The notes beneath the pieces were generated by a model that did no database searches, was not told the origin of the DNA, and worked only from the letters and a program-made list of their open reading frames with translations. A stretch of 64,000 nucleotides of DNA from contig CACORY010000001.1 of the NCBI GenBank assembly GCA_902629695.1, positions 92,566 through 156,565 on the forward strand, read 5' to 3'. The position numbers were made by a program, and so were the translations under genes. Source of the DNA: an uncultured Pelagibacteraceae bacterium (GTDB taxonomy: Bacteria; Pseudomonadota; Alphaproteobacteria; Pelagibacterales; Pelagibacteraceae). This document shows, one piece after another, positions 31,928-48,280 of this stretch (positions are counted from its first letter, which is position 1; every line of letters begins with the position of its first letter).

Positions 31928-32001
31928 GCCCGATTGGTGTAGTAGAAGCACGCGAACCTGTGGAGTTCGAGGGTCCTTTGCGAATAAGGGATCGGGTACC
32001 A
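31928..32001 (+). tRNA. tRNA-His (GTG), no encoded G-1, discriminator A73
   Basis: Cloverleaf: acceptor GCCCGAT/ATCGGGT (first pair G-T), D-stem GTGT/GCAC with loop AGTAGAA, anticodon stem CGAAC/GTTCG with loop CTGTGGA (anticodon GTG), variable AGGG, T-stem TCCTT/AAGGG (base pair T-G) with loop TGCGAAT, discriminator A, encoded CCA at 31999-32001. The base before position 1 is C. The standard bacterial G-1:C73 identity pair is therefore missing. D-loop reads A18 G19, T-loop G55. Only four bases separate it from the hisS ATG. Confidence 0.92.
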
Positions 32002-35119: not shown

Positions 35120-35236
35120 TTTATCCTTAAAATAAATAAGGATTATTTTGATAATATCTAAATTTCTTAATATTGCATAAAGAGCTACTAAAATTCCAAT
35201 AGCAATCACAATTTTAAACAGAAATAAAAAATCCAT
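35105..35236 (-). CDS. small membrane protein, 43 aa
   Basis: An ATG frame at 35236 of 43 codons plus stop. The product is MDFLFLFKIVIAIGILVALYAILR followed by a second hydrophobic patch and the tail KDKLFGK, so one transmembrane helix is likely. It begins two bases after the 150-aa ORF stop and would be the last gene of the minus-strand island operon. It overlaps the hisG end and contains an inverted repeat (35123-35143), so it could also be a chance frame. Confidence 0.45.
   Translation of the reverse strand: MDFLFLFKIVIAIGILVALYAILRNLDIIKIILIYFKDKLFGK
35123..35143. terminator. inverted repeat between convergent hisG and island operon
   Basis: ATCCTT (35123-35128) pairs with AAGGAT (35138-35143) around a nine-base AT loop. 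T-rich sequence follows on both strands, though no long T-run is present. It could act as a weak bidirectional terminator for hisG and the convergent minus-strand operon. It lies within the 43-aa ORF. Confidence 0.35.
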
Positions 35237-35238
35237 CT

Positions 35239-35691
35239 TTAAACTTTATCCCTTTGATTATAATACCATTTTTTTTGCCTTTTTCTTTTTTCATCTAGCT
35301 GTTTTTCGCTCAAATTAGCATATATTTTTTTATCGTATTCACTCTTTTCTTTTTCACTCATTTCATCTCTAATTTTTTTTGTGGATGCCCTGTTCTTTAA
35401 AATGCCAACATCAATCTCACCTTTTTTGAATTGTTCTATGCTTTCTTCTGTAGAATGTTTTAAGATATTCCTCATATTTATTCTCTTACCAGAATGATAG
35501 AATTTAAGACCAGGCCTATCCGTTTCTTTTCTTGTCAAATATTTGATCTTATTTAATTTAGTCTCACCTCTAAAATCTTTTTTCGTCCAATTTCTTGGTT
35601 TACTATCAATTATCTTTTGTAATTCCTCATCAGTACGTAATATCCACTGATTATTGCCGACAGGGTTTCTATTAAAATCTTTTTTACTCAT
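35239..35691 (-). CDS. hypothetical basic protein (150 aa) in accessory island
   Basis: It begins MSKKDFNRNPVGNNQWILRTDEEL and is very rich in Lys, Arg, Glu and Asn, with a long charged C-terminal helix (SEKEKSEYDKKIYANLSEKQ). No signal peptide, membrane segment or cysteine motif is seen. The composition recalls small phage or nucleic-acid-associated proteins, but no family could be named. It lies seven bases after the 88-aa ORF and belongs to the same minus-strand string. Confidence 0.6.
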   Translation of the reverse strand: MSKKDFNRNPVGNNQWILRTDEELQKIIDSKPRNWTKKDFRGETKLNKIKYLTRKETDRPGLKFYHSGKRINMRNILKHSTEESIEQFKKGEIDVGILKNRASTKKIRDEMSEKEKSEYDKKIYANLSEKQLDEKRKRQKKWYYNQRDKV

Positions 35692-35697
35692 TTTTGT

Positions 35698-35964
35698 TTA
35701 GCATTTTTTATAATCTGAAAATTGAATAATATTACAATTATTAACAGTTTTTTTAAATTGTGATTTTAGTAATTTATTTTTTTTATTTTTGTATTCAAAA
35801 TAGATATCATCAGCTTCACGTAAGAAATCTGGAGATAAATCATCAAAACCAAAAGTCACACCATTTAACATCGCAAAAAGAGTTGTTTTAGCTTGCTCAT
35901 ACTCTTTTTGAGAAAATTTTTGAGATATATTAATTAGCAATTTATGTAGATCGTTATTTTTCAT
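35698..35964 (-). CDS. hypothetical protein (88 aa) in accessory island
   Basis: The N-terminal two thirds form a likely helical domain (HKLLINISQKFSQKEYEQAK, FGFDDLSPDFLREADDIYFEY), followed by a basic tail with two cysteines. It shares its first base with the stop of the 74-aa gene, a typical coupled junction. No family was recognised. Confidence 0.55.
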   Translation of the reverse strand: MKNNDLHKLLINISQKFSQKEYEQAKTTLFAMLNGVTFGFDDLSPDFLREADDIYFEYKNKKNKLLKSQFKKTVNNCNIIQFSDYKKC

Positions 35965-36188
35965 TAATTAATTTTTTTTTTATGAAGTATAAAACGTATA
36001 TTTTTCTTCCGTGTCACATGCATTGGATCACTTTTGACATCAAAAAGCATGTCTACATAAACATCATATTTTTTATCATTAGATTTTTCATAAACTTTTA
36101 TCAAAATTTTTATTTTTTCTTTTTTATTCTTCTTATTTAATTCTAAAATATTTAGATTTTTTTTGTAAAAATTAATTCTTTTTTTCAT
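35964..36188 (-). CDS. hypothetical protein (74 aa) in accessory island
   Basis: This is a very basic product. After a Lys/Asn-rich start (MKKRINFYKKNLNILELNKK) it alternates strands such as IKILIKVYEK, KYDVYVDMLFDV and KNIRFILHKK, suggesting a small beta sheet. It overlaps the upstream 94-aa gene by 17 bases. No family was recognised; the A-rich start reduces certainty about the start codon. Confidence 0.45.
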   Translation of the reverse strand: MKKRINFYKKNLNILELNKKNKKEKIKILIKVYEKSNDKKYDVYVDMLFDVKSDPMHVTRKKNIRFILHKKKIN

Positions 36189-36456
36189 TTGCTCCTTTTT
36201 CTAAATTTTCAATAATGCTTGAAACATTTACTGAATTAACAAAAATCTCATTTAATACTTCATCAGAAATACAAACCATCTTTCCTGAATTATGTGTAAA
36301 GCGTGTAAAAGGTTTTTCATCAGTTTTGACCATCAAAAGAGTTTGCTCCTTATTATTTTTTTTAAGTCTCACGTAAATACACCATTTACAAGCGTGGCCC
36401 GGGTCCTGCTTTTCAAATTCTATTTCAATACCATCTACTGTTAGCAATTTTGTCAT
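36172..36456 (-). CDS. hypothetical protein (94 aa) in accessory island
   Basis: The product begins MTKLLTVDGIEIEFEKQDPGHACKWCIYV, with a CKWC pair at about residues 23-26, then predicted beta strands (EQTLLMVKTDEK, KMVCISDEVLNEI) and a C-terminal helix. A single CxxC could join a metal site in a dimer. It shares one base with the zinc-ribbon gene. Function is unknown. Confidence 0.55.
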   Translation of the reverse strand: MTKLLTVDGIEIEFEKQDPGHACKWCIYVRLKKNNKEQTLLMVKTDEKPFTRFTHNSGKMVCISDEVLNEIFVNSVNVSSIIENLEKGANEKKN

Positions 36457-36653
36457 TAATGAACAGTATCTCCATCTAATTCAAATACCTGTTTTAAAGT
36501 TTTTTCAGAACAAAGTTTACATTCTTCCATTACTTCTTTACCAAGATAAAATTTTCCAATTTGGATTATTGTTTTTACATTTTTTACCATTTTGGATCCT
36601 TCACAAGCAGGACATTGAATTAGAAGTTTATTTTTTTGCATCTGATTTTTCAT
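36456..36653 (-). CDS. small zinc-ribbon protein (65 aa)
   Basis: Two cysteine pairs, CPAC at residues 14-17 (in the DnaJ-like form CPACEGS) and CKLC at 45-48, flank about 27 residues, as in a zinc ribbon or half of a DnaJ-type zinc finger. It may bind nucleic acid or a protein partner. It overlaps the upstream membrane-protein gene by 26 bases. A shorter start at Met5 is possible. Confidence 0.6.
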   Translation of the reverse strand: MKNQMQKNKLLIQCPACEGSKMVKNVKTIIQIGKFYLGKEVMEECKLCSEKTLKQVFELDGDTVH

Positions 36654-36954
36654 TTTCTATTTCCTTTTCAATTTTCTTAATTCTTTCGTATCTTGCGATG
36701 ATAAAATGAGCATCAATCATCCCTTGAGCTATTAAGATAAAAATACCACATTTGATTAAGAAGGAGTTTTCTTGAATTATACCACTTGCTAAAAACAAAC
36801 ATCCTGCATTAGCTAATACAAAAAATATATTCCTAGCAGCATAAGGAACTTTTTCATCTTTTCCAAAAAAGTAAAAAACTAAGCATGCTTGAAAAATTAA
36901 TGTAGCTTTTGCAGCAAATAACATTGCTTCAAGCAGTAAAGGATCTGCTATCAA
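36628..36954 (-). CDS. small polytopic membrane protein (108 aa)
   Basis: Three hydrophobic segments are visible, at about residues 8-30, 40-58 and 64-86, followed by a charged cytoplasmic-type tail (RYERIKKIEKEIENEK). Its start overlaps the end of the herA reading frame by four bases, so translation is probably linked to herA. No family was recognised. A membrane partner beside a HerA/NurA pair is unusual for plain DNA repair. Confidence 0.6.
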   Translation of the reverse strand: MIADPLLLEAMLFAAKATLIFQACLVFYFFGKDEKVPYAARNIFFVLANAGCLFLASGIIQENSFLIKCGIFILIAQGMIDAHFIIARYERIKKIEKEIENEKSDAKK

Positions 36955-38634
36955 TTAGCTCTCCTTCTATCTATAGAAGTTATATTAGAGAAATCTTTAG
37001 CGAATTTTTTTCTTTGTTTAACAGACTCCTTGTCATCCCAATTTTCCACTGCAGAGATAAAATTTTCATTCCCTATATCATCGTTGATTAATTCAGCATC
37101 AAATTTAATTTGAACTGGAAGTGAAAAATTTACTACTTGGCCACTAATTATACCTTGGCCGTTTGCAAGATTAGGTAGCTGTTTAGAGTCGTCTACACTT
37201 AAAGTTTCAGAGTCTCTAGTAGTTGCTCTTTGGTCTTTTTTGATTGACCATTCTAAATACAATTTGACTATTACATTGTGAAGCAATGGTTTCATCCAAA
37301 CGTGATGGCCTTTGAGAAATAATCATTACCCCAGTTCCAAATTTTCTACCTTCAGTAATTACTTTTCGTATTGTATCAACTGATGGAAGGTTGTCTTTAT
37401 CCTCAGATCTTGATGGTATGAAATTGTGGGCTTCTTCAATAATTGTTAAGAAAGGTGGAATTTCTTCTTCCACTTCTTGTCTGTGTTTGAATAGATTTTC
37501 TAGTAAAATTGAAACAATTGCACTAGCTGGAAGATTTTCATAACCTTTAAGATATAAAATACTTAGCTGGCCTTTATTGATAATTTTTTCTGGTTCAGTT
37601 GCAGCATCTGGTAATTCTTCGAACTTTAATTTACTCATTTTTTGTCTATGTCTAAAGTTAGTTTGCTCCATATTTTTTAACTTTTTAGCAACTTGGCCAA
37701 GACTTCTAACCACAACATACATTGAAGCTGGACGAATATTTTTAAATGATTTTGAGGAGTCTGACGCATACTCTCTAGCTTTTCGCACAAGTAGCTCGAT
37801 ATACTTTAGTAAACTACCACCTTCGTATTTAACTTTTTCTAATAGTGAGCTTAAAAAATCTTTTTGAGGATCTGTTAGTGAGTTTCCAAGTTTATCAATT
37901 AAAGTGTAAATGATTTCTTTATCATCTGAGCTTACAGATAGATTAGGATAAAATAATTTTACTTCATTTTTAGGATATAGTTTTTTTTGTTTTTGAATAA
38001 ATCCTAAATAATCACCATGAATATCAAGCACTAGCATTGGATATTTTTTCTTCAAAAGCTCATCCATTATTCTTCTAACCATTACAGTTTTACCAGAACC
38101 TGACATTCCAAATATTGAAACATGACGTGATACCAAATTATCAGCATCAATTTTAATTTTAACTGCATCCCTAGCTAGTAAACTTCCAATGAATAAGGGA
38201 TGTTCAGAGTCGAGGTCTGAGATTAATAAAGCCTCTACGTCTTCACTAGATGGATAGCTTACAGTTGCTGCTGGTCTTACAGGGTAGTTTAAAGGCATTA
38301 ATTTTAAATTATCTTTTAAAGTAAAACCTAAGATGATTACTTTGCAAATAAGTTCATCTCTAGTTGTTGGAAGAATAGTGTCTCTAATATCTATATTTTC
38401 ATTAGTTAATTCTTGAGCTGCTTCTGTTGGAAAGAATACATTTGAGCTTTCGATTGAGGAAATTTTACCCCAAACTGTTACTGGAACAATATTACCCTCA
38501 CTTGATGGAATTTTAGACTCTGTAGTGATGATGTCACCTTTTTTAGCTTTATAGTTTTTTAGACTGAAGTAAAATTCACTTATATTTGTTTCACCTAAAA
38601 CTGTTCCGATAGATTTCCATTTTTTAGTATTCAT
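36951..38634 (-). pseudogene. herA: HerA-like (DUF87) DNA-translocase ATPase, frameshifted
   Basis: Residues 1-466 read in one frame: an N-terminal HAS-barrel-like domain, Walker A GMSGSGKT (176-183), VLDIHGDYLGF, Walker B IIEEAHNF (Glu 400/401) and ISQRPSRLDETI. At the A-run opposite 37236-37241 the frame then ends after six aberrant residues. The C-terminus continues in another frame: DQRATTRDSETLS, GQGIISGQVV and so on for 94 residues to 36951. Removing one A (six to five) restores a 560-aa HerA. It could be a real mutation, a slippage site or a sequencing error. HerA translocates DNA with NurA, the gene one base upstream. An independent start for the C-terminal piece (37295) looks artificial. 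Confidence 0.85.
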
Positions 38635-39947
38635 TATCTTACTAATCCTCCTAATGGTCTATTTCTCCAAGACCTTACTTTTTTTGATAAAATTTTTACG
38701 GCTAAACTGATCGTGTTTTGATCTTTACTTCTAATAGCTTGTTTTAATAAATGAGTTGCATAATATTTTCTTGAGGCCTTACTCATCCAATTTGGAATTT
38801 TGGCAAATTTATCAACTACATTTAAACCAACTGGGAAACCATAGTTAGGTAATAATCTTGCTGTAGCTAAAATATATTCATAATCTTTAATTAAGTTTTT
38901 TGATGGATTTAATGATTCAATTCTAATTGGAGCTGAATGATCATTAATTTTAATATATCCGATATGAACACTTGGAAAAGAGTCCATTTTATCTTCCCAA
39001 GCTGATCCTGAGGTAACACTAAATCCTTTAATTTGTTTTTTTACTTCAAGAGGTTTAATTGCTTGGCCACTTTGTAAAATTATTTCTAATAAGTGAGAGT
39101 CTGTAATTTTGTATTTTTTGATGGTTGCAAGGGTGTTTTTAAAATCTTTTTCTGAAATAGTTCCTTTTGACTTATAGTTAAACAGCAAGTTTTTGATATA
39201 GGGTGCTGAATTAGATGTTTCCACAATTCCATAAATAGGAAACTTACTTTTCTTAATTGAATTAAGGGCCTCTAAATAGACATTGATGAAATGTCTTGCT
39301 TCTGCATTAAGCTTATTTTTATTGTAAAAAGGAAGCATATTTTCTACAGCAAACTTTGTAAAAGTTGGAAAACCCATTACTGTAAATGGCATTACAGTTG
39401 CTTCAATAGGGCCATGTAAAAAACAGTAATCAAATTTCCTATTTAATAAGATGTGTTTAACAATTGTAACTGCTTCAAAAATTATTCTAGCGCCATCTTT
39501 TTTCTTATTAAGCATTTGATCTTCATCAAAGTCATCTTCAGCAAAGTCATAGAGTTCATTTTTAGGGTCATATAGATCACCTAAAAACACCATACTTTCT
39601 TCAAAGAATTCTCTATTTTTATCTGCAGCATCTGGCTTAACGATGTAGCTGCCAGTTCTAATACTAAGTGGTGCGCTACTGATTATAGATGTTTTATCAA
39701 CTCCTCCATCTACAAAGCATGAAGTTTTACATTTATTTTCAGACCAGAAATCTTTTCCTTTATATTCAAGGTTTGTAATTAAATTTGCATCTTCTAAAAT
39801 TCTCTGAACAGTAAGGGCAACTTGAGTGCTAACATCTAGAAAGTTATTTTGTACTTTTGGAGATGCTGAAACAGCATTTTTTACAAAATTAGTAAATAAA
39901 GATGAGTTTGATTTTATTTTATTTTTAATATCTGTTTCGTTACTCAT
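38634..39947 (-). CDS. nurA: NurA-like nuclease partner of HerA
   Basis: The chosen ATG at 39947 has GGAG seven bases upstream; a TTG at 39962 would be in frame but lacks this. The protein is 437 aa. NurA-like features in order are FVDGGVD (catalytic Asp about 80), GARIIFEAVTIVKHIL (Glu about 158), CFLHGPIE (about 175-182, where NurA usually has L-D-G-S-L), IYGIVETSN, PIRIESLN and LPNYGFPVGLNVVDKFAKI. The second motif has His in place of Asp. NurA is an RNase-H-fold 5'-3' and endonuclease that works inside the HerA ring in end resection. It shares one base with herA. Family call is from motif pattern plus the HerA neighbour. Confidence 0.75.
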   Translation of the reverse strand: MSNETDIKNKIKSNSSLFTNFVKNAVSASPKVQNNFLDVSTQVALTVQRILEDANLITNLEYKGKDFWSENKCKTSCFVDGGVDKTSIISSAPLSIRTGSYIVKPDAADKNREFFEESMVFLGDLYDPKNELYDFAEDDFDEDQMLNKKKDGARIIFEAVTIVKHILLNRKFDYCFLHGPIEATVMPFTVMGFPTFTKFAVENMLPFYNKNKLNAEARHFINVYLEALNSIKKSKFPIYGIVETSNSAPYIKNLLFNYKSKGTISEKDFKNTLATIKKYKITDSHLLEIILQSGQAIKPLEVKKQIKGFSVTSGSAWEDKMDSFPSVHIGYIKINDHSAPIRIESLNPSKNLIKDYEYILATARLLPNYGFPVGLNVVDKFAKIPNWMSKASRKYYATHLLKQAIRSKDQNTISLAVKILSKKVRSWRNRPLGGLVR

Positions 39948-40307
39948 CTGTTTGCTCCACAAAAATATTGAATTTTAGTTCCTCGAATATTTGTTCGAAT
40001 AGTCAATTTTTTATTTGAAAATTTGTTAAATCGTCTTTTTAAGATTTGTTTAAATACCCAACATGATTTTCTACTAGTAAAACTTCTTAAATGAATTTTA
40101 GTAACTTTGTTTTTAGCCTTAGTATTGCAGCTGTTGAAAGACCCTTGGTTATGAAAGAAAGGGAAATGAAGGGAGCCAAGAGTACGAGGCGTTGCCGCTA
40201 CTCGACAGCTGCTTTTACTAAAGCTAATTACGTTATTTGAAGTGAACCTCCTGTTGTTAAGTTTATTTTTAAAGTTAAAACGCATAATCATATACATACT
40301 CCCAAGA
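39948..40307. other. 360-base non-coding gap between sigma and nurA genes
   Basis: This is the only stretch over 300 bases without a credible gene. A 129-codon minus-strand frame covers it, but its product has no Asp or Glu at all and overlaps the sigma gene, so it is not accepted. Around 40127-40212 the sequence is unusually GC-rich and foldable (listed separately). The rest is AT-rich. The region may hold the nurA-herA leader, a small RNA, or both. Confidence 0.7.
40127..40212. ncRNA. candidate structured RNA or cis-regulatory element
   Basis: Arms 40127-40137 (GCAGCTGTTGA) and 40202-40212 (TCGACAGCTGC) pair over 11 bases with one wobble. Inside, CTTGG (40144-40148) pairs with CCAAG (40176-40180), and AGTA (40181-40184) with TACT (40199-40202), giving a possible three-way junction. 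G+C is 45 of 86 bases, far above the surrounding DNA, a known sign of structured RNA in AT-rich genomes. The loop on the plus strand is A/G-rich (GAAAGAAAGGGAAATGAAGG), hinting at plus-strand transcription, but as a nurA leader it would be read on the minus strand. It matches no RNA family I recognise. Confidence 0.5.
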
Positions 40308-41219
40308 CTAGCTTGGTAAACGATACCCATCATGTTGTTGTACTTTTTGGGAAATACTTTTTATTAAGAAAGAAAATCGTTGTTTTGAAATATTTAAGGT
40401 ATTCTGAATAAATCTTTTATCATTTCCATCATTAAGTAAATATAAAAGTTCCCATTCTTTTTGAGTTAAGATTTTTTTATATTTATCAATATTTCTTTGA
40501 TTATTTTTTTCTATATAATAATCTTCTAGATTTTTAGGCTGATTAACCGTTGGATCAATTATTCCTTCTGATGATGCAAAATCAACGAAACTCCATAGAT
40601 CTTTATTATCGAAATTACTTTCGGTTATATGATTTTCATTATCAATACCTTGATGAACAAATTGAACTTCTTTTAATGTCTCTATTTTGCAACCAAACTC
40701 TTTGATAAGTATTGAGTCTTCTATCTTTGTACTGATATCAAGTTTCAATTTTTTTTTAATTTTTTTTAGTTTTTTATAATAATTGTAGAAAACTTTTTTA
40801 AATTCTGCCCCTTTTTCAACACTAAATAAAGGATCATAATTTGTTTTCTTTTTATTAAGATATTTAGAAATATTAAGACAAATGGTTTTAGTAAAGGCAC
40901 CACTTTTATCTTCATGAGCTCCTTTCGTTTTATCAAATGAATTAATACCGTTGATTATTCCTTTAATTCCAGTTTGAATTATATCTTCTCTATGCCATGG
41001 GTTTGAATTTTGGCCATTAAATATTCTCTTAGAATCTTTCAATACTTTAGGAAGGTATCTATTGATTATTAATGTCTTAGCGTATTGTGATTGAGAATTA
41101 TTGGCTTTAGCAATATCTAAAAGTTCAAGATCAGTCTTATTTTTGATGTTATTTGGAAGATTTTCGCAATAAGTTTTTATTGCTAAAAGACTGTTATATT
41201 GTGTGTTTTTGTGCTGCAT
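40308..41219 (-). CDS. divergent sigma-70-like factor resembling T4 gp55
   Basis: The protein is 303 aa. Residues 45-115 look like sigma region 2: LIINRYLPKVLKDSKRIF, then PWHREDIIQTGIKGIINGINSFDKTKG, then AFTKTICLNISKYLNKK. The W-x-x-E-x-I-x-x-GI...FD-x-TK...T-x-x-C-x-N spacing recalls T4-type late sigma gp55 more than RpoD or RpoH. Residues about 250-290 (LTQKEWELLYLL, then NTLNISKQRFSFLIKSI) resemble a region 4 helix-turn-helix. It would direct core RNA polymerase to specific promoters, perhaps those of the island. It has its own consensus -35 promoter. Assignment is from motif shape only. Confidence 0.65.
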   Translation of the reverse strand: MQHKNTQYNSLLAIKTYCENLPNNIKNKTDLELLDIAKANNSQSQYAKTLIINRYLPKVLKDSKRIFNGQNSNPWHREDIIQTGIKGIINGINSFDKTKGAHEDKSGAFTKTICLNISKYLNKKKTNYDPLFSVEKGAEFKKVFYNYYKKLKKIKKKLKLDISTKIEDSILIKEFGCKIETLKEVQFVHQGIDNENHITESNFDNKDLWSFVDFASSEGIIDPTVNQPKNLEDYYIEKNNQRNIDKYKKILTQKEWELLYLLNDGNDKRFIQNTLNISKQRFSFLIKSISQKVQQHDGYRLPS

Positions 41220-41262
41220 TCATAAGATTGGTGCACAAAAAAATTATTTAATCTTATAAACT

Positions 41263-41291
41263 TATTTATTCTTGGAATTCTTATCTGTCAA
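41263..41291 (-). promoter_or_regulatory. sigma-70 promoter of the gp55-like sigma gene
   Basis: On the minus strand a perfect TTGACA (plus coordinates 41286-41291) is followed after 17 bases by TAAATA (41263-41268), and the gene starts about 44 bases further on. A perfect -35 is rare in this window, so the gene is probably read by the housekeeping sigma factor. Confidence 0.55.
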
Positions 41292-41331
41292 CGATCTGAT
41301 ATAAATCTTATATTACAAAAAAGTAACAAAT

Positions 41332-42435
41332 TTAAGGCAGATTCTCTCTTTTTTTTGCATCCTGGATCAAATAATTAGAAATATCCCTCATTTGTGAGAT
41401 GTTTTTATTAGTTATCACAGTTAATTCCATTTTATTGTTCAATTTTGAGTTGTTATTTTCATCCACAATTTCGACTCCAAAGTCACTTTTAATTGCGTAA
41501 AAATTTATATTCTCAATTTTTGTGCTTTGATCAATTTTTTTACCTAAAATCCAATGTCTTTTATGTTTCCATCCTAGACGACCAGGCATATCTTTTTGTT
41601 TAATAATTTTTACCTTAGCTTTAATTTTATTTTCTTTGTTATTATAAAACAACAATTCCTCAATCTTGCTTTCTAGTAATTTTATTTCATTAACTGAAAT
41701 AGTTTTTTTTTGTTCTTTAGTAAGGCAAGAAGGAATGTCTGTAAGAACCTTAAATTCTGATGGTTTTATATTTTCAGGTAATTTTTGCCACCATTTATAA
41801 AGTAAATTAACTCCGTATTCTATTTTTCTTAAATTTTCTAAAATATATCCAGAGGATTTATTTTTGAAATCAATAAGACTTGAGCAAAAAATACTATCTT
41901 GATTAGGTAATACATAATTACTTAATTCTTTATGGTAAATATTAACCATATTAATTTTTGATTCACGAGAGGAAGATTTGGATTGTATAAAAATTTTTAA
42001 TTTTCCTAAGAATTTCATTGAAAATTCGTAAGTACTATTTTTAAAATCTTCTGGGTAAAAATTTCCTTCGAGTATTTTTATTTTTAACTCTCTATTAATT
42101 TGGTTTTTAAAATTTTTTATAAAGTCGATTGGTATTTCACTTTTTTCTTTTTCATCAGTTTTGAATTCAAGACTTTGATTTAAATTATTAAGCGCATCTT
42201 CTAATAAAACTTTTTTTTCTGTAAGGGATAAATTATTTAAACTATCATTTGATAGATCATTAATTATTTTTCCTAAAAATTGTTTGATATCATTTTTAGA
42301 ATCTGAAATAAGAATAGCTTTTTGATTAAGATTAAAATCACTTAAGTCTATATTAAAATTACTTAGATCATTAGATTTCAATTCTTTAAAATTCTTAAAA
42401 TAATTATGATCGATTGAATAAGTAACAAAAGGCAT
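41332..42435 (-). CDS. unrecognised partner protein of the AAA ATPase
   Basis: The frame is open from 42501, but the ATG at 42435 (MPFVTYSIDHNYFKNF) lies two bases after the ATPase stop and is the natural coupled start, giving 367 aa. The product is mostly soluble and charged. It has a helical middle part (residues about 60-230) and a C-terminal beta-like part with KAKVKIIKQKDMPGRLGWKHKRHWILGKKI. No nuclease, TOPRIM or protease motif was recognised. Its strict pairing with the DUF3696-type ATPase suggests an effector or adaptor in a two-gene system. Function is not assigned. Confidence 0.65.
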   Translation of the reverse strand: MPFVTYSIDHNYFKNFKELKSNDLSNFNIDLSDFNLNQKAILISDSKNDIKQFLGKIINDLSNDSLNNLSLTEKKVLLEDALNNLNQSLEFKTDEKEKSEIPIDFIKNFKNQINRELKIKILEGNFYPEDFKNSTYEFSMKFLGKLKIFIQSKSSSRESKINMVNIYHKELSNYVLPNQDSIFCSSLIDFKNKSSGYILENLRKIEYGVNLLYKWWQKLPENIKPSEFKVLTDIPSCLTKEQKKTISVNEIKLLESKIEELLFYNNKENKIKAKVKIIKQKDMPGRLGWKHKRHWILGKKIDQSTKIENINFYAIKSDFGVEIVDENNNSKLNNKMELTVITNKNISQMRDISNYLIQDAKKRENLP

Positions 42436-42436
42436 T

Positions 42437-44911
42437 TTAAGATGTAAGTATTTCCATTCTTTCTGTAAAAAAGCCACCAGGCCATTTTTTTTCAAATCCA
42501 CCTTGAGAGTTTAACGGAAGATGATGAACTTCAGAATCTCCTAATTTATTCCTTGAAATATAATTAATTGAAACTTCATTTGATTTCAAAATTCCTTTTT
42601 GAACAAGTTTTTGTACTTGTAAAACAAATAATTCACTATGTGTCTCTAAAATAAAAGTTCTAGAAATTCTACTTTTGATAATCTTAGCTATTAATTCAAT
42701 TATTTTTGATTGGTACTTCGGATGCCAATTATTTTCTAATTCTTGAACAAGATATGTTAAGTTAGGTCGATCAGATAAAATTTGAGCTAAAAAAGGAATT
42801 ATATTAGTTGGACCTTTGCCAACCTCTTCACCATGAATATAAAATTTTCTTTTAAATTTTAGATCTTGCAGCATAATAAATTTATTCCTTCTATACATGC
42901 CCATACCTGTTGGATACATCAATCCTCGCCTTTGTGCATTTCTAAACACATTATATAAATTTGGGTCTTTAAGAATTTTTTTAAGAAATTTTGGAGTAAC
43001 GACTACTAACTTTAAATTCAAAACATCTTTTAAAATTTTATTTAATTCTTTTCTTAATTTTGGATTATTAGAAATTATATTGTCAAAATTTGCCCCATTT
43101 GCTGCAATTCTATGTGAATCTATCACCCTTTTTTGTCTCTCAACAAATTCTTTTCTAATTTTTTCGTCTTGTTCTGCAATTTCAGACCTACTCAATTGTT
43201 TTTCTTTAGCCATGTTTTCAATTTTTGATAAAAAGTCATCTGGATAATCTCCCTCATTTGGAACAGACCAAAATACATCAGTTTTATTTGGGTGACATAT
43301 TACAAGATTATTAACTATTTTTTTTATTTGAGAAACACATTTTCTAAAAATATTAATACTAGGATTGAATAAAAAACCAGGTTCAATATTCCCATAAATA
43401 TCTTTACCTTTATAAAATATGTTGTGTGCTCCACCTTCAATAAATTTAGTTATATATCTAAAAACACCATAAGTCGTTGACGAGTGACGGCCATTTTCTC
43501 TGATTATCCAAAAATTTACATTAGAACTTTTTTTTGTTGCTCTTACTTTGAATAGACCCTTTGTTTCGAAAGATGCATGACTTGCAAATTGTAGGAAGGT
43601 TTTTGGTTTTTTGGCTTGTAATAAATTATCTATTACCAACATATTGATATCGTTAAAGTCATTGGCTACCATCATACAAAAATTTATTTCGCAATGTCTT
43701 TTGAAATTTAGTTCTTTATACTTTTTTGCAAATTTGTCTTCTCCGTAAAAATGATCATCCTCTGCAAATACTATTCCTAACTCTCTCTCAAAATTTTTAT
43801 CTTTTTCGTAAATTTTAGTAATATTATCCATCCATTTTTTATCTCGAGATGAAATTTTTTTACGTTTCGTTTTAAAGCTAGAATCAAAGTTATTTAAGAT
43901 ATCATAATAATGATTAATTTCTGATTCTATTAAAGATAAATTTTTTGAACTATTATCTTCCTCTATAATCCTTTTAACCAAATAATATATTGTTACTTCT
44001 AAATGATTTCTTTCTATAAATTTTTGAGTAAAGTAATTTATAGTTGCAAATTTTTTAGAGAGTAATTTAAAAGCCTCTTTCCTAAAAAAAATATTTTTAT
44101 CATCTTTGAAAGTTTTTTTATAAGAGTTGTAATAATCCTTCCAACTGTTCTTATCAATAATTATGTCGTAGTCACTATAAAGCTCTTTGTCTACAAAATA
44201 ATCAGGTTCTGCTATAGGCCTACCCCTATGATATGTACCACTATATCTATCTGGTCTTGTTAAAATTTTATTAAATCTTTCACTGATATAACCAACTTCG
44301 TTTGTATCAATAATCCTTTTATAATTTTTATCAATTCTTTTTAATTTTACTAATTTTTCATCGTTATCTTTTTTTATTTCTATACTATCAATTTTACTTA
44401 CCTTTTTTTTCTTGTTATATTTTATTACTAAAGTCATTTTAATTGGAATAGAAAAAACCTCCTCTTTTTTGACAGTAATTTTTTGATCAGGTATGAAATA
44501 TGTTGAAACTGTTTGCAAGGATTTATCCTGACTAAATTGATGATAAATGGTTTCTTTTTTAATATTTTCAAAAAAATTATTTAGATCATCTACAAACGTA
44601 GGATAGTGAATATCCATTTTTATTTCTATTTTAATTTCTTTTTTATTGAGCCTTGACGAGTAAAAGTGAATTTTTTTTGATGAAATATTCTGAATATTCT
44701 CATTTCTATAAAATGGAGAGTCCTTCTGACTTACATTTTTACCTCTTTTTACCTCGTGTTCAGAAAAAATATTATGAATAATATCAAAAGTTTTTAGTAA
44801 AGTAGTTTTTCCAGAACTATTTTCTCCATAGAGAAGTGTTAAAGGGGCAATCTTTAAATTCTGCTCTTTTGAAAATGTTTTTATATTTCTTATTGTTATT
44901 TGTTTGTACAT
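42437..44911 (-). CDS. AAA/ABC-type ATPase with DUF3696-like C-terminus
   Basis: The protein is 824 aa, SMC/OLD-like. It starts YKQITIRNIKTFSKEQ with Walker A GENSSGKT (29-36). A very long middle region of about 650 residues follows. Near residue 720 comes VQELENNWHPKYQ (Walker B and signature region), then FILETHSELFVLQVQKLVQKG and the tail WPGGFFTERMEIL, which is the hallmark of DUF3696. No TOPRIM nuclease is visible, so any nuclease activity would come from the partner. Such ATPases are common in anti-phage operons. It is divergent from rmuC across 113 bases and is followed by the partner gene after one base. Confidence 0.8.
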   Translation of the reverse strand: MYKQITIRNIKTFSKEQNLKIAPLTLLYGENSSGKTTLLKTFDIIHNIFSEHEVKRGKNVSQKDSPFYRNENIQNISSKKIHFYSSRLNKKEIKIEIKMDIHYPTFVDDLNNFFENIKKETIYHQFSQDKSLQTVSTYFIPDQKITVKKEEVFSIPIKMTLVIKYNKKKKVSKIDSIEIKKDNDEKLVKLKRIDKNYKRIIDTNEVGYISERFNKILTRPDRYSGTYHRGRPIAEPDYFVDKELYSDYDIIIDKNSWKDYYNSYKKTFKDDKNIFFRKEAFKLLSKKFATINYFTQKFIERNHLEVTIYYLVKRIIEEDNSSKNLSLIESEINHYYDILNNFDSSFKTKRKKISSRDKKWMDNITKIYEKDKNFERELGIVFAEDDHFYGEDKFAKKYKELNFKRHCEINFCMMVANDFNDINMLVIDNLLQAKKPKTFLQFASHASFETKGLFKVRATKKSSNVNFWIIRENGRHSSTTYGVFRYITKFIEGGAHNIFYKGKDIYGNIEPGFLFNPSINIFRKCVSQIKKIVNNLVICHPNKTDVFWSVPNEGDYPDDFLSKIENMAKEKQLSRSEIAEQDEKIRKEFVERQKRVIDSHRIAANGANFDNIISNNPKLRKELNKILKDVLNLKLVVVTPKFLKKILKDPNLYNVFRNAQRRGLMYPTGMGMYRRNKFIMLQDLKFKRKFYIHGEEVGKGPTNIIPFLAQILSDRPNLTYLVQELENNWHPKYQSKIIELIAKIIKSRISRTFILETHSELFVLQVQKLVQKGILKSNEVSINYISRNKLGDSEVHHLPLNSQGGFEKKWPGGFFTERMEILTS

Positions 44912-45024
44912 ATCATCTAAACTTTAAGAAAAATATTATTTTAATAATATATCTATTCCTCTTTTAAGTATAAAATTATTTTTTTCTTGTTTACTCTGAT
45001 TAAAAAAGGAATAATTACCTTTCT

Positions 45025-46119
45025 ATGCAAGATTCGTTAATATATTTACTTTTAGCACTCGTTGTAGTGGTGATTTTTTTATTACTTAGACAAAGAAATA
45101 ATAACAATAATCAAAGTGAGAATAAAGAAGCAGAGGAATTAGCTAATTTAAATGCTGAAATAGTGAGGTTGAAAGACAGCCTTAATTCTACAATCAATAC
45201 ATCATTAAGTTCGATGTCTACTTCATTTAATTCTTTATCAACTGGGGTCACAAAAGATATGACTGAGGCTTTAACAAAAGTAGATGAGAAGGTTGGGAAT
45301 TTTAACGAGCAAGTAAAATTGCTAAATCAAAGCCAAGAGGGGATTACTAAAATTTTAGCGGGGGTTAAAAAGTATGGAACTTTGGCTGAGTATTCTTTGG
45401 ATGCTTTAATTAAAGATTTATTACCGGCGTCTCAATTTATGACCAATGTAAAAATGAAGGAAGATACCAGCGAGAATGTAGAATTTGCAATCAAGCTCCA
45501 AGGAGATGTTTTGGTTCCAGTAGACTCTCATTTTCCAGTAGAAAAATTTAAGGCAATTACAGATGCTTATGATGCGGATGATAAAAAAGCAGTTGCGGAT
45601 GCTAGAACCAAATTAGCAAGTGCATTTAAGGCCAAAGCAAAAAGTGTCATGGAGAAATATATTGTTCCACCTAAAACTTCAAATTTTGCAATAGTTTATG
45701 CTCCTACAGAGAGTCTTTATAAAGAATTAACTGAGTATCAAGACCCAAGCACCAAAGAGCTATTAACTCAAGAATTAATGAAAAAATATAAAATAGTAAT
45801 TTGTGGCCCAAATACTCTCTCAGCTTATTTACAATCTTTACATATGGGCTTTCAGTCTCTTAAAATTTCAAAACACGCAACAGAGATTTATGATCATTTA
45901 AAAACTATAAGTACGAGATTTTCTAGTCATTTTGATAATATTTATAAATTAAGAAAAAAACTTGAAGAGGCCATGACGGTTGTTGATAGTTTTGGAAAAG
46001 ATGCAAGATCAATTACTAGAACTTTAGAAAATATAAAAGATCCCGAGCAAGTTGAAAAAGCTGTACTGACAGAGAACGTTGAGAGTTTTGTTGAAAGAAA
46101 TAAACAAGTTAAAAAATAA
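45025..46119 (+). CDS. rmuC: DNA recombination protein RmuC
   Basis: The protein is 364 aa. It has an N-terminal membrane anchor (LIYLLLALVVVVIFLLL), then a coiled coil (residues 30-115), then the RmuC domain with GDVLVPVDSHFPVEKFKAI (near residue 155), VPPKTSNFAIVYAPTESLY and CGPNTLSAYLQSL. RmuC limits DNA inversions at short inverted repeats and is a predicted nuclease-like protein. It heads a plus-strand set with two exonucleases. Confidence 0.93.
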   Translation: MQDSLIYLLLALVVVVIFLLLRQRNNNNNQSENKEAEELANLNAEIVRLKDSLNSTINTSLSSMSTSFNSLSTGVTKDMTEALTKVDEKVGNFNEQVKLLNQSQEGITKILAGVKKYGTLAEYSLDALIKDLLPASQFMTNVKMKEDTSENVEFAIKLQGDVLVPVDSHFPVEKFKAITDAYDADDKKAVADARTKLASAFKAKAKSVMEKYIVPPKTSNFAIVYAPTESLYKELTEYQDPSTKELLTQELMKKYKIVICGPNTLSAYLQSLHMGFQSLKISKHATEIYDHLKTISTRFSSHFDNIYKLRKKLEEAMTVVDSFGKDARSITRTLENIKDPEQVEKAVLTENVESFVERNKQVKK

Positions 46120-46156
46120 TTTCTTTTTTCAGATAATACCGACTATAAGAAATCAC

Positions 46157-46840
46157 ATGCGTTGGAACAAAAAATATGACTATCCTAAAAGTATAAGATC
46201 AATAGAAAACGGTATTAGAAAATACGTAATTGGAGATACTAAACTTCCATCAGTGACAAGTATTCTTGACCAAACACGCTCTGAGGAAGACAAAGCAGCA
46301 TTAGCAAATTGGCGGGAAAGAACACCAAATGCTGAAGCAATTACTTCTGCAGCTGCCTCTCGCGGGTCAAAAATGCACGCATACCTGGAGTCATTTATTT
46401 TAAACAGAGAAAATTTAAGTTTTTTTGATGATGGTGAACAACATAAGTTAATGGCAAAACAAATTATCGAAAAAGGTTTAATCAATAGACTAGAGGAGGT
46501 GTGGGGGGTTGAGGCAACTCTTTTTTATCCTGAGAGATATAGTGGGACTTGTGATGCTGTGGGCATCTATGATGGTCAGCAAGCAATTGTAGATTTCAAA
46601 CAAAGTAACAAACCAAAAAAAGCTGAATATATTGATAGTTGGCTACTACAAACTGCAGCTTATTCTTTAGCTCATAATACGGTGTACAAATCGAATATCA
46701 CATCCTGTGTGATTTTAGTTTGCACAGTTGATAATTTGTTTCAAGAGTTTAAGATTCAAGGGCCCGAACTTATAACATATCAAAATTTGTTTTTAGGTAG
46801 ATTAAAAAAATTTAATGAGATGAATAATTTGGTTTTATAA
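46157..46840 (+). CDS. PD-(D/E)XK phage-type exonuclease
   Basis: The start MRWNKKYDYPKS at 46157 is preferred over an in-frame ATG at 46079 inside rmuC. The protein is 227 aa. It has LPSVTSILDQT, LANWRERTPN, SRGSKMHAYLESF and the nuclease core YSGTCDAVGIYDGQQAIVDFKQS (D...DxK). The 'PSVTSIL...GS-K-x-H' opening is like exonucleases of T4-like cyanophages and marine bacteria. It probably resects double-stranded DNA ends. It is four bases from the exonuclease I gene. Confidence 0.8.
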   Translation: MRWNKKYDYPKSIRSIENGIRKYVIGDTKLPSVTSILDQTRSEEDKAALANWRERTPNAEAITSAAASRGSKMHAYLESFILNRENLSFFDDGEQHKLMAKQIIEKGLINRLEEVWGVEATLFYPERYSGTCDAVGIYDGQQAIVDFKQSNKPKKAEYIDSWLLQTAAYSLAHNTVYKSNITSCVILVCTVDNLFQEFKIQGPELITYQNLFLGRLKKFNEMNNLVL

Positions 46841-46843
46841 AAA

Positions 46844-48280
46844 ATGGATAAAATTGTAATTTACGATACTGAAACCACGAACTCAACAATATGGGGATCC
46901 ATAATTGAAGTTGGGGCTGTTGTAGTTGATAAAAATTTAAAAGAGATAGGAAAATTAAATATAAGAGGGCGAATGCCAGAGGGCGAGGTGCCGAGTGCAA
47001 AGGCTTTACTTGTTAATTCAACTAGTATCGATTTATTAACTAAAGGCAACTACTCACATTATGACTTCTTAGGTGCTACTGAGAATTTTTTTACAAAATG
47101 TGCTCCTGCTATGTTTATGGGTTGGTCAAATCTTAATTTTGATAGAAGAATGTTTCACTTCAATTTTTTTAAAGGAAATAGATACCCATATGCCACTCAT
47201 TCTTCACCAAATAAAGAACATGATGGTTTACATATTGCAAGAGCAGCTCAAACTTTAAATCCTGAAACTTTAAAAACTGAATTAACTGAGGCTGGAAATC
47301 CAAGTCTAGCTTTAGAAGCATTAGCTAGAATGCAAGGATTTGATACTTCTCAACAACACACAGCTTATCATGATGCATATACTGCCCTAAAGGTACTTAG
47401 AATAATTAAAGATAAACATAAAGAGAATTGGGAAGAATTTTTAAAAACATCAACAAAATCAAGTGTGGAAACACTTTTAACTAATGAGGGGATTTATTCT
47501 ATTTTTGAAAATGTAAAGGGGAGAAATATGATGTATCTTGGTTGCTCATTACATCCTAAGCACTCCTTTCATCCATCTTATGCTTCATGGGGATATTTGT
47601 GGGACTGTCGTAGAGATCCAGAACCATTAATAAATTTACCTATTAATCAACTTAGGGATGTTTTAAAAAAAATGAGCCCCAAAGCCCTGAGGGTTTTAAA
47701 AACAAATAAAGCACCAGTGGTCTTGGATAAACAGTTTGCATTAAAACAAAAGCCATATACAGATTTAGATTTAGAGACAATTAAAAAGAGAGCATATTTA
47801 GTAAGAAATAGCGAAAACTTTTGTAAGAATATTCAAACTATTCATAGAGAAGCAGCAGAAGAAAAAGAACAAACTAAAACCCAAGAAGATTTATTACCAG
47901 AAGAAACTTTGTATGAAAAATTTATTCCAAACAAAGATACTGCTTTATTCAAAACATGGCATAGTTCATCTTGGGAGGATAAATTAAGAATGTTAGATAA
48001 ATTTCAAGATAAAAGATGTAGCTGGTTTGGACAAAAAATTATCTATCAAGAAGCTCCACAAATTTTACCACCAGACTTGTATAAAAATATCAAAAGTGAA
48101 ATTGCTAGACGTATATTAAGTAAGAATAAAGAGAAATGGCAAACAGTAAATATGGCTTATACAGAAATAGATTATCTTAGGGATCAAGCCTCAAACAAGA
48201 ATGACGAAGAAGAATTAAAAAAATTGGATGAAATTAATCAATTTATTATGTCAATTGAAAAAAAATATGAATTTGTATAG
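46844..48280 (+). CDS. sbcB: exonuclease I (single-strand DNA 3'-5' exonuclease)
   Basis: The protein is 478 aa, close to E. coli ExoI. The DEDDh catalytic residues are visible: YDTET (Asp8, Glu10), WSNLNFDRRMFHF, and HTAYHDAYTALKVL. The C-terminal part holds the SH3-like and helical domains (GCSLHPKHSFHPSY, LWDCRRDPEPL). It removes 3' single-strand tails in recombination and mismatch repair. It is last in the rmuC/exonuclease/sbcB set, followed by trx after 34 bases. Confidence 0.92.
   Translation: MDKIVIYDTETTNSTIWGSIIEVGAVVVDKNLKEIGKLNIRGRMPEGEVPSAKALLVNSTSIDLLTKGNYSHYDFLGATENFFTKCAPAMFMGWSNLNFDRRMFHFNFFKGNRYPYATHSSPNKEHDGLHIARAAQTLNPETLKTELTEAGNPSLALEALARMQGFDTSQQHTAYHDAYTALKVLRIIKDKHKENWEEFLKTSTKSSVETLLTNEGIYSIFENVKGRNMMYLGCSLHPKHSFHPSYASWGYLWDCRRDPEPLINLPINQLRDVLKKMSPKALRVLKTNKAPVVLDKQFALKQKPYTDLDLETIKKRAYLVRNSENFCKNIQTIHREAAEEKEQTKTQEDLLPEETLYEKFIPNKDTALFKTWHSSSWEDKLRMLDKFQDKRCSWFGQKIIYQEAPQILPPDLYKNIKSEIARRILSKNKEKWQTVNMAYTEIDYLRDQASNKNDEEELKKLDEINQFIMSIEKKYEFV

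Follow-up and report, generated by a model that had tools for sequence, protein, structure and literature searches.

The 64,000-nucleotide stretch analysed here (the window) comes from an uncultured Pelagibacteraceae bacterium (assembly GCA_902629695.1, contig CACORY010000001.1). Profile matches of its product and of related proteins identify the open reading frame (ORF) at 40308-41219 on the minus strand as a real gene encoding a divergent sigma-70-family protein. The gene lies between hisG and rmuC in an island that also encodes a HerA ATPase and a NurA-family nuclease (hisG, trxA and folC of the window are names we assigned from the sequence and thus presumptive). In eight of ten same-genus genomes without a NurA match (97-100% complete) hisG adjoins rmuC directly, and two of the ten hold other genes there. 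Because the two genes are contiguous in island-less genomes, we regard 35120-45024 as an accessory island. The locus comprises:

40308-41219 (−): sigma-70-family gene of type A, 303 amino acids (aa), from the ORF call and the profile matches of the protein and its relatives
35120-45024 (no strand): accessory island between hisG and rmuC, from synteny with island-less genomes
42437-44911 (−): AAA ATPase gene, 824 aa, RecF/OLD-like with a weak DUF3696-type C-terminus, a cassette gene, from profile matches
41332-42435 (−): p390, about 390 aa, a cassette gene; probable ATG start near 42435, ORF-finder GTG start at 42501
39944-40333 (−): p113, small basic protein conserved next to NurA; likely start near 40285
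38634-39962 (−): NurA-family nuclease (PF09376)
36951-38634 (−): HerA ATPase (PF01935), in two frames in the assembly
45025-48280 (+): core operon of rmuC, PD-(D/E)XK nuclease and exonuclease I, neighbouring the island and present without it in eight of the ten genomes compared

The AAA and p390 genes stand upstream of the sigma gene on the same strand, and p113, NurA and HerA follow downstream. Across a divergent gap from the AAA gene come rmuC, the PD-(D/E)XK nuclease gene and exonuclease I, then trxA. The NurA and HerA genes are adjacent and their products exceeded the curated cut-offs (22.7 versus 21 bits for PF09376; 102.1 versus 23.2 bits for PF01935); the PADLOC HerA model matched the island HerA at 7e-41.

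A divergent sigma-70-family protein

A direct protein search of 297 genomes of the family returned only the window's own genome and two rows covering the helix-turn-helix (HTH) part. Searching with the single sigma protein is misleading, and relatives were reached through the neighbouring NurA. NurA matched at E≤0.001 in 13 of the 297 genomes, nearly full length in 10 of them (own genome included). Scanning genome_contigs with a NurA alignment yielded 28 loci, several from the same genomes as in the former search; 26 are titled Pelagibacteraceae or Candidatus Pelagibacter and two come from a metagenome-assembled genome titled Proteobacteria. A full-length ORF occupies the sigma position, or slot, in 21 of the 28, which with the window makes 22 slot proteins; of the rest, L039 is cut, L035 and L045 end before the slot, and L049-L051 and L054 carry other genes. 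Slot ORFs were identified by position, over labels from permissive BLAST (for example a p390 label on a sigma ORF).

For the window protein alone, the sigma assignment is weak, as Pfam Sigma70_r2 (E 0.0047, residues 52-100) and a LuxR-type HTH at the C-terminus (E 0.0042, residues 250-296) stayed under their curated cut-offs, and the NCBIfam sigma-70 family model TIGR02937 (E 6.1e-8, residues 51-295) reached 32.5 bits against a cut-off of 42.9 bits. The matches of its relatives made the assignment solid. TIGR02937 matched 21 of the 22 slot proteins at E≤1e-3, and three of seven relatives scanned singly exceeded its cut-off; the MzaA model matched five of the 22. In the alignment of all 22, region 2 residue D79 is invariant and a region 4 signature is present. 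The profile built from them matched the solved structures of SigA (1.4e-21) and RpoH (2.7e-14), and among 76 solved-structure sequences matching at E≤0.01 the best 60 are all sigma factors. The window protein gave a weak structural model (pLDDT 57), the C-terminal HTH alone being confident; the best 50 of 232 Foldseek rows obtained with this model are sigma chains, seven of them at E≤1e-3.

The first-pass annotation had described the gene as a third sigma factor-like gene in a streamlined genome, with a possible region 4 HTH at its end, and both points held: the C-terminal HTH match and the region 4 signature agree, and TIGR02937 finds three loci in the source genome (964 kb, 35 contigs, 79.75% complete), namely an rpoD-like frame of 615 aa, an rpoH-like frame of 299 aa and the gene at 40308-41219. 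SAR11 is credited with only two sigma factors in PMC13198564, a picture that would thereby gain a third, accessory and fast-evolving one.

Sigma types, cassette exchange and candidate promoters

Five types of slot protein were assigned from the protein alignment before the promoter gaps were inspected:

Type A: window, L031, L034, L038, L048
Type B: L030, L036
Type C: L032, L033, L043, L044, L046
Type D: L029, L037, L040, L041, L042, L052, L053, L055, L056
Type E: L047

The type of L056 was uncertain at first, and the protein later matched a type D model built without it (4.5e-22). Across 20 loci compared, sigma identity was 11-23% between types and 25-95% within types. Among the 297 family genomes, type D sigma occurred in five (E≤1e-14) and type C in one (E≤1e-35, a threshold chosen to exclude RpoH), and all six places are islands already found through NurA.

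Comparison of the neighbouring genes indicates that AAA, p390 and sigma are swapped together as a single cassette, with little dependence on NurA-HerA. Pairwise identities over 20 loci (19 for HerA) correlated strongly within the cassette (sigma-AAA 0.88, sigma-p390 0.76, p390-AAA 0.87) and within the downstream genes (NurA-HerA 0.90, p113-NurA 0.84), and hardly between sigma and NurA (0.15) or HerA (0.06). NurA is 98-100% identical among L041, L042, L043 and L048, yet their sigma types are D, D, C and A; likewise, L044, L047 and L053 share NurA at 98-99% identity yet carry types C, E and D. Other variants of the island were also seen. L049-L051 keep p113-NurA-HerA and have opposite-strand ORFs of 656-660 aa and 107-108 aa in place of AAA-p390-sigma, L054 keeps the same three genes with a 1205-aa ORF in that place, and a 220-aa ORF lies between NurA and HerA in L044, L047 and L053.

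Most genes abut or overlap in the 20 loci that carry a sigma gene and the full gene set, but intergenic spaces of 40-121 nt (the rmuC-AAA gap) and 66-173 nt (the p390-sigma gap) are conspicuous. Both gaps hold a short motif that varies with the sigma type, approximately RGAATAWATA in type A, RCGTATATCT in type C, RCGGNTATAW in type D and perhaps AAYMNCTATMT in type B. The −35 box is rather constant across types (TTGAAA/TTKACW-like), whereas the extended −10 changes with type. The candidate sites in the window are:

41263-41291 (−): candidate sigma promoter, TTGACA-N13-AGAATAAATA, about 44 nt before the start codon
44990-45017 (+): candidate rmuC promoter, TTTACT-N12-GGAATAATTA, 8-9 nt before the rmuC ATG
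44950-44961 (−): candidate −10 toward the AAA gene, GAGGAATAGATA, seen by eye and not supported for the window by the classifier

At rmuC and p113 the −10 lies 8-9 nt from the start, which suggests that their transcripts may be leaderless. A conserved leader element is also found just before the sigma start (41219-41240 in the window; p390-sigma gaps of 18 loci), GCAGC-like in most type C and D loci and TTGTGCACCA-like in most type A loci.

Motif sharing between the two gaps was higher within types (8.46) than between types (6.42), and none of 10,000 label permutations gave as large a difference. Models built from the rmuC-AAA gaps with the test locus left out typed 15 of 18 p390-sigma gaps correctly. 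Models from the 26 nt upstream of rmuC, with the own locus left out, assigned all 18 sigma upstream regions to their type (types A, C and D only; about 6 of 18 expected by chance). Two-box patterns gave 45 own-type matches in 19 loci, 44 of them directly upstream of rmuC, AAA, sigma or p113, and other-type patterns gave four matches in 38 scans; these counts are descriptive, the tests being motif sharing, the classifiers and L052, which lies outside the gap table and carries the sigma-gene site.

The motifs are rare elsewhere in the genomes. All six exact matches to the type D pattern in 12 whole genomes fall in the rmuC-AAA gaps of the five type D genomes. With one mismatch allowed, the sigma site was recovered in all five and the p113 site in two of them, and the remaining matches were scattered and as numerous as in a reversed-pattern control. 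The type A pattern matches the window's genome twice, at 41263-41291 and 44990-45017 within the island; in each of three further type A genomes two of two matches lie in islands and in a fourth two of three, giving 11 matches in five type A genomes, 10 of them in islands, against five in the seven other genomes. A separate observation concerns G003 (L068, about 1260-1325), which has no NurA match yet carries a type C motif before rmuC, with flanks resembling those of the type C locus L033; this motif is probably what remains of a type C island that was lost.

A putative private transcription circuit and its alternatives

We consider it likely that the gene encodes an alternative sigma-70-family factor which belongs to the exchangeable AAA-p390-sigma cassette of a HerA-NurA island and drives private promoters travelling along with it. 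The island sigma would recruit the host RNA polymerase core to these promoters, which would serve its own operon (sigma, p113, NurA, HerA), the AAA-p390 operon and the adjacent core operon rmuC-PDDEXK-exoI, forming a positive-feedback switch with the island and the neighbouring operon as its regulon. Sigma factors recognise the −35 through region 4 and the −10 through region 2. In the island sigma these two regions would be matched to the rather constant −35 and the variable extended −10, respectively, and this combination agrees with a family whose −10 recognition has become diverse. AAA or p390, co-inherited with sigma, could, speculatively, restrain it. HerA-NurA, the matches of the AAA ATPase to defence models (PADLOC NsnB, 2e-24), the patchy presence and the turnover suggest that the circuit may trigger the degradation of foreign (phage) DNA.

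If this circuit exists, it would provide at least three natural sigma-promoter types that share the −35 and similar spacing and differ in the extended −10, pairs from which DNA recognition by region 2 could be studied, together with a testable defence-like island whose private transcription switch also commands neighbouring core genes. More tentatively, and as a possibility we do not favour, SAR11 might swap effector cassettes with their own sigma and promoters at one locus, in a multi-allelic, naturally orthogonal sigma-promoter system. Each cassette would then be switched on by its own key only, with the adjacent nuclease operon under the same key, and would be out of reach both of a phage that takes over the standard sigma factors and of rival cassettes; immunity alleles locked by a sigma in this way would represent a regulatory principle new to bacterial defence.

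Several observations weigh against the private-promoter circuit. The two-box patterns were composed after the sites had been inspected, with the spacing imposed. A first classifier, trained on p390-sigma gaps, was correct in only 5 of 18 cases because its model locked onto the leader element before the sigma start, and the rmuC-upstream models typed 14 of 18 AAA regions and 11 of 18 p113 regions, with type A regions correct in two of five and one of five cases, respectively. As the loci are related, all such counts overstate independence; type A effectively represents two lineages, and types B and E comprise too few loci. The sigma correlation is weak also with p113 (0.22) and RmuC (0.23). Of 1,000 permutations, 26 reached the weak sigma value for NurA, 211 that for HerA, three that for p113 and two that for RmuC, so that a small shared signal remains with the latter two. 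It could also be a different product of the cassette that reads the motif. Binding by AAA, p390 or a host factor, with the sigma-like protein a degenerate or non-initiating regulator, would agree with the co-variation of AAA and p390 with sigma, which equals that of the motifs in strength, and with several slot proteins scoring below curated sigma cut-offs. We nevertheless consider it improbable, since the distance of the sites from start codons is that of promoters, a −35-like box accompanies them at a fixed interval, and the slot-protein family keeps regions 2 and 4. A serious rival, if a somewhat unlikely one, concerns purpose: the sigma may run a DNA-repair rather than a defence programme, in which HerA-NurA resection together with RmuC and the exonucleases is triggered by DNA damage. 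HerA-NurA are end-resection enzymes in archaea according to published abstracts, and the neighbours are DNA-processing genes, but the patchy occurrence (13 of 297 genomes with NurA) and the fast AAA-p390-sigma exchange look more like conflict than housekeeping.

Two further alternatives concern the origin of the protein. The first-pass annotation had compared it with the T4 late sigma gp55, and the local resemblance is true: 31% identity to T4 gp55 over 54 residues (E 2e-4 in one single comparison), lying in the region 2.2 string and limited to type A. A gp55 hidden Markov model scored 11.8-13.4 bits on four type A proteins, exceeding the 5.3 bits on the genome's own RpoH, and at most 4.8 bits on the remaining 18 of the 22 slot proteins. 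Profile homology, however, did not follow, with probabilities against the gp55 profile of 0.4% for the 22-protein profile and 11% for type A. T4 gp55 is a short protein without region 4, and its promoters, TATAAATA, lack a −35; the slot proteins have region 4, and the candidate island sites carry a −35-like box plus a type-specific −10, which speaks against late promoters of the gp55 style. Relatives of the window protein and of types A, C and D were not found in viral_contigs by four short-peptide-pattern scans, which could miss distant ones. Weak matches came from 26 phage records, none better than E 0.02, and several of the best 20 lie over annotated Bacillus phage sigma genes. We therefore reject as very improbable that the gene is a T4-type late sigma captured from a pelagiphage or cyanophage, on the profile mismatch, the restriction to type A, the differing anatomy and the lack of viral relatives in these scans. 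What stands of the earlier idea of a captured or integrated sigma that reprogrammes transcription is that the gene is part of an inserted element and could redirect transcription; the phage-type source does not. We give just as little credence to the idea that the protein is simply an ordinary paralogue of RpoH with vertical inheritance. Thirteen of the 22 slot proteins are matched by RpoH models and the slot-protein profile matches the genome's own RpoH with 97.6% probability, but the best RpoH score among the seven relatives scanned singly was 76.7 bits against a cut-off of 323.1, the window protein compared pairwise with its own RpoH gave E 0.40, no match, and the sigma is found at the island only. 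The annotation had counted ordinary RpoH proteins as closest relatives against its proposal; in the NCBIfam scan no RpoH model matched the window protein up to E 1.

Among known systems, sigma-70 factors of the RpoH/SigA type (TIGR02937, TIGR02392) share with the island sigma regions 2 and 4 in order and −35/−10-style candidate promoters, whereas the island sigma is very divergent, accessory and exchanged between relatives, with a candidate promoter set confined to the island. T4 gp55 is alike in the region 2.2 string of type A, and the island sigma is not a member of its family. PMC9523054 calls mzaA of the MZA anti-phage system a sigma factor. MzaA (NF041931) is likewise a sigma-like protein in a defence-type cluster and its best slot-protein match reached 1.4e-7, but up to E 1 the MzaA model did not match the window protein. 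Since no Mza model, the partners MzaB-E included, occurs among the PADLOC matches listed for eight island and neighbour proteins (for one protein, the best 25 of 36), we rejected MZA membership. The adjacent NurA and HerA genes recall the HerA-NurA end-resection complex and anti-phage HerA; here, unlike in those systems, they stand in a sigma-led operon with an exchangeable AAA-p390-sigma cassette. Orthogonal ECF sigma-promoter pairs (PMC3817407) are also sigma factors with distinct cognate promoters, whereas the island variants are natural alternatives at one chromosomal locus and match RpoH/SigA-type models. The arrangement is not described in the titles and abstract beginnings searched, a literature mostly outside subscription papers.

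Neighbouring genes and minor observations

The window HerA is split into a 472-aa frame and a 114-aa ORF, the final 96 residues of which match the C-terminus of L018 HerA at 99% identity, and HerA of L031 is likewise in two pieces; the split in the window reflects either a frameshift or a single-cell assembly error. The predicted structure of p390 (pTM 0.63) gave no Foldseek match at E≤1e-3, with SauUSI (E 0.057) as a weak lead, and an MITD1-C/PLD-like reading of p390 was dropped for want of support from Pfam or PDB sequence comparison. A non-coding RNA suspected by eye between sigma and nurA was also discarded, the stretch being the conserved p113 gene; it holds no Rfam family at gathering score (three weak rows nearby; fold z −2.05). 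On the question whether HerA-NurA replaces AddAB, the AddA model gave weak matches in 249 of the 297 genomes, none over the cut-off and mostly in frames too short for AddA. The exonuclease-I-like gene at 46844-48280 (+) matches the PADLOC model RTasSbcB at 3e-57. At 31928-32001 (+), just before hisS, ARAGORN predicts a tRNA-His that scores below the Rfam tRNA gathering score.
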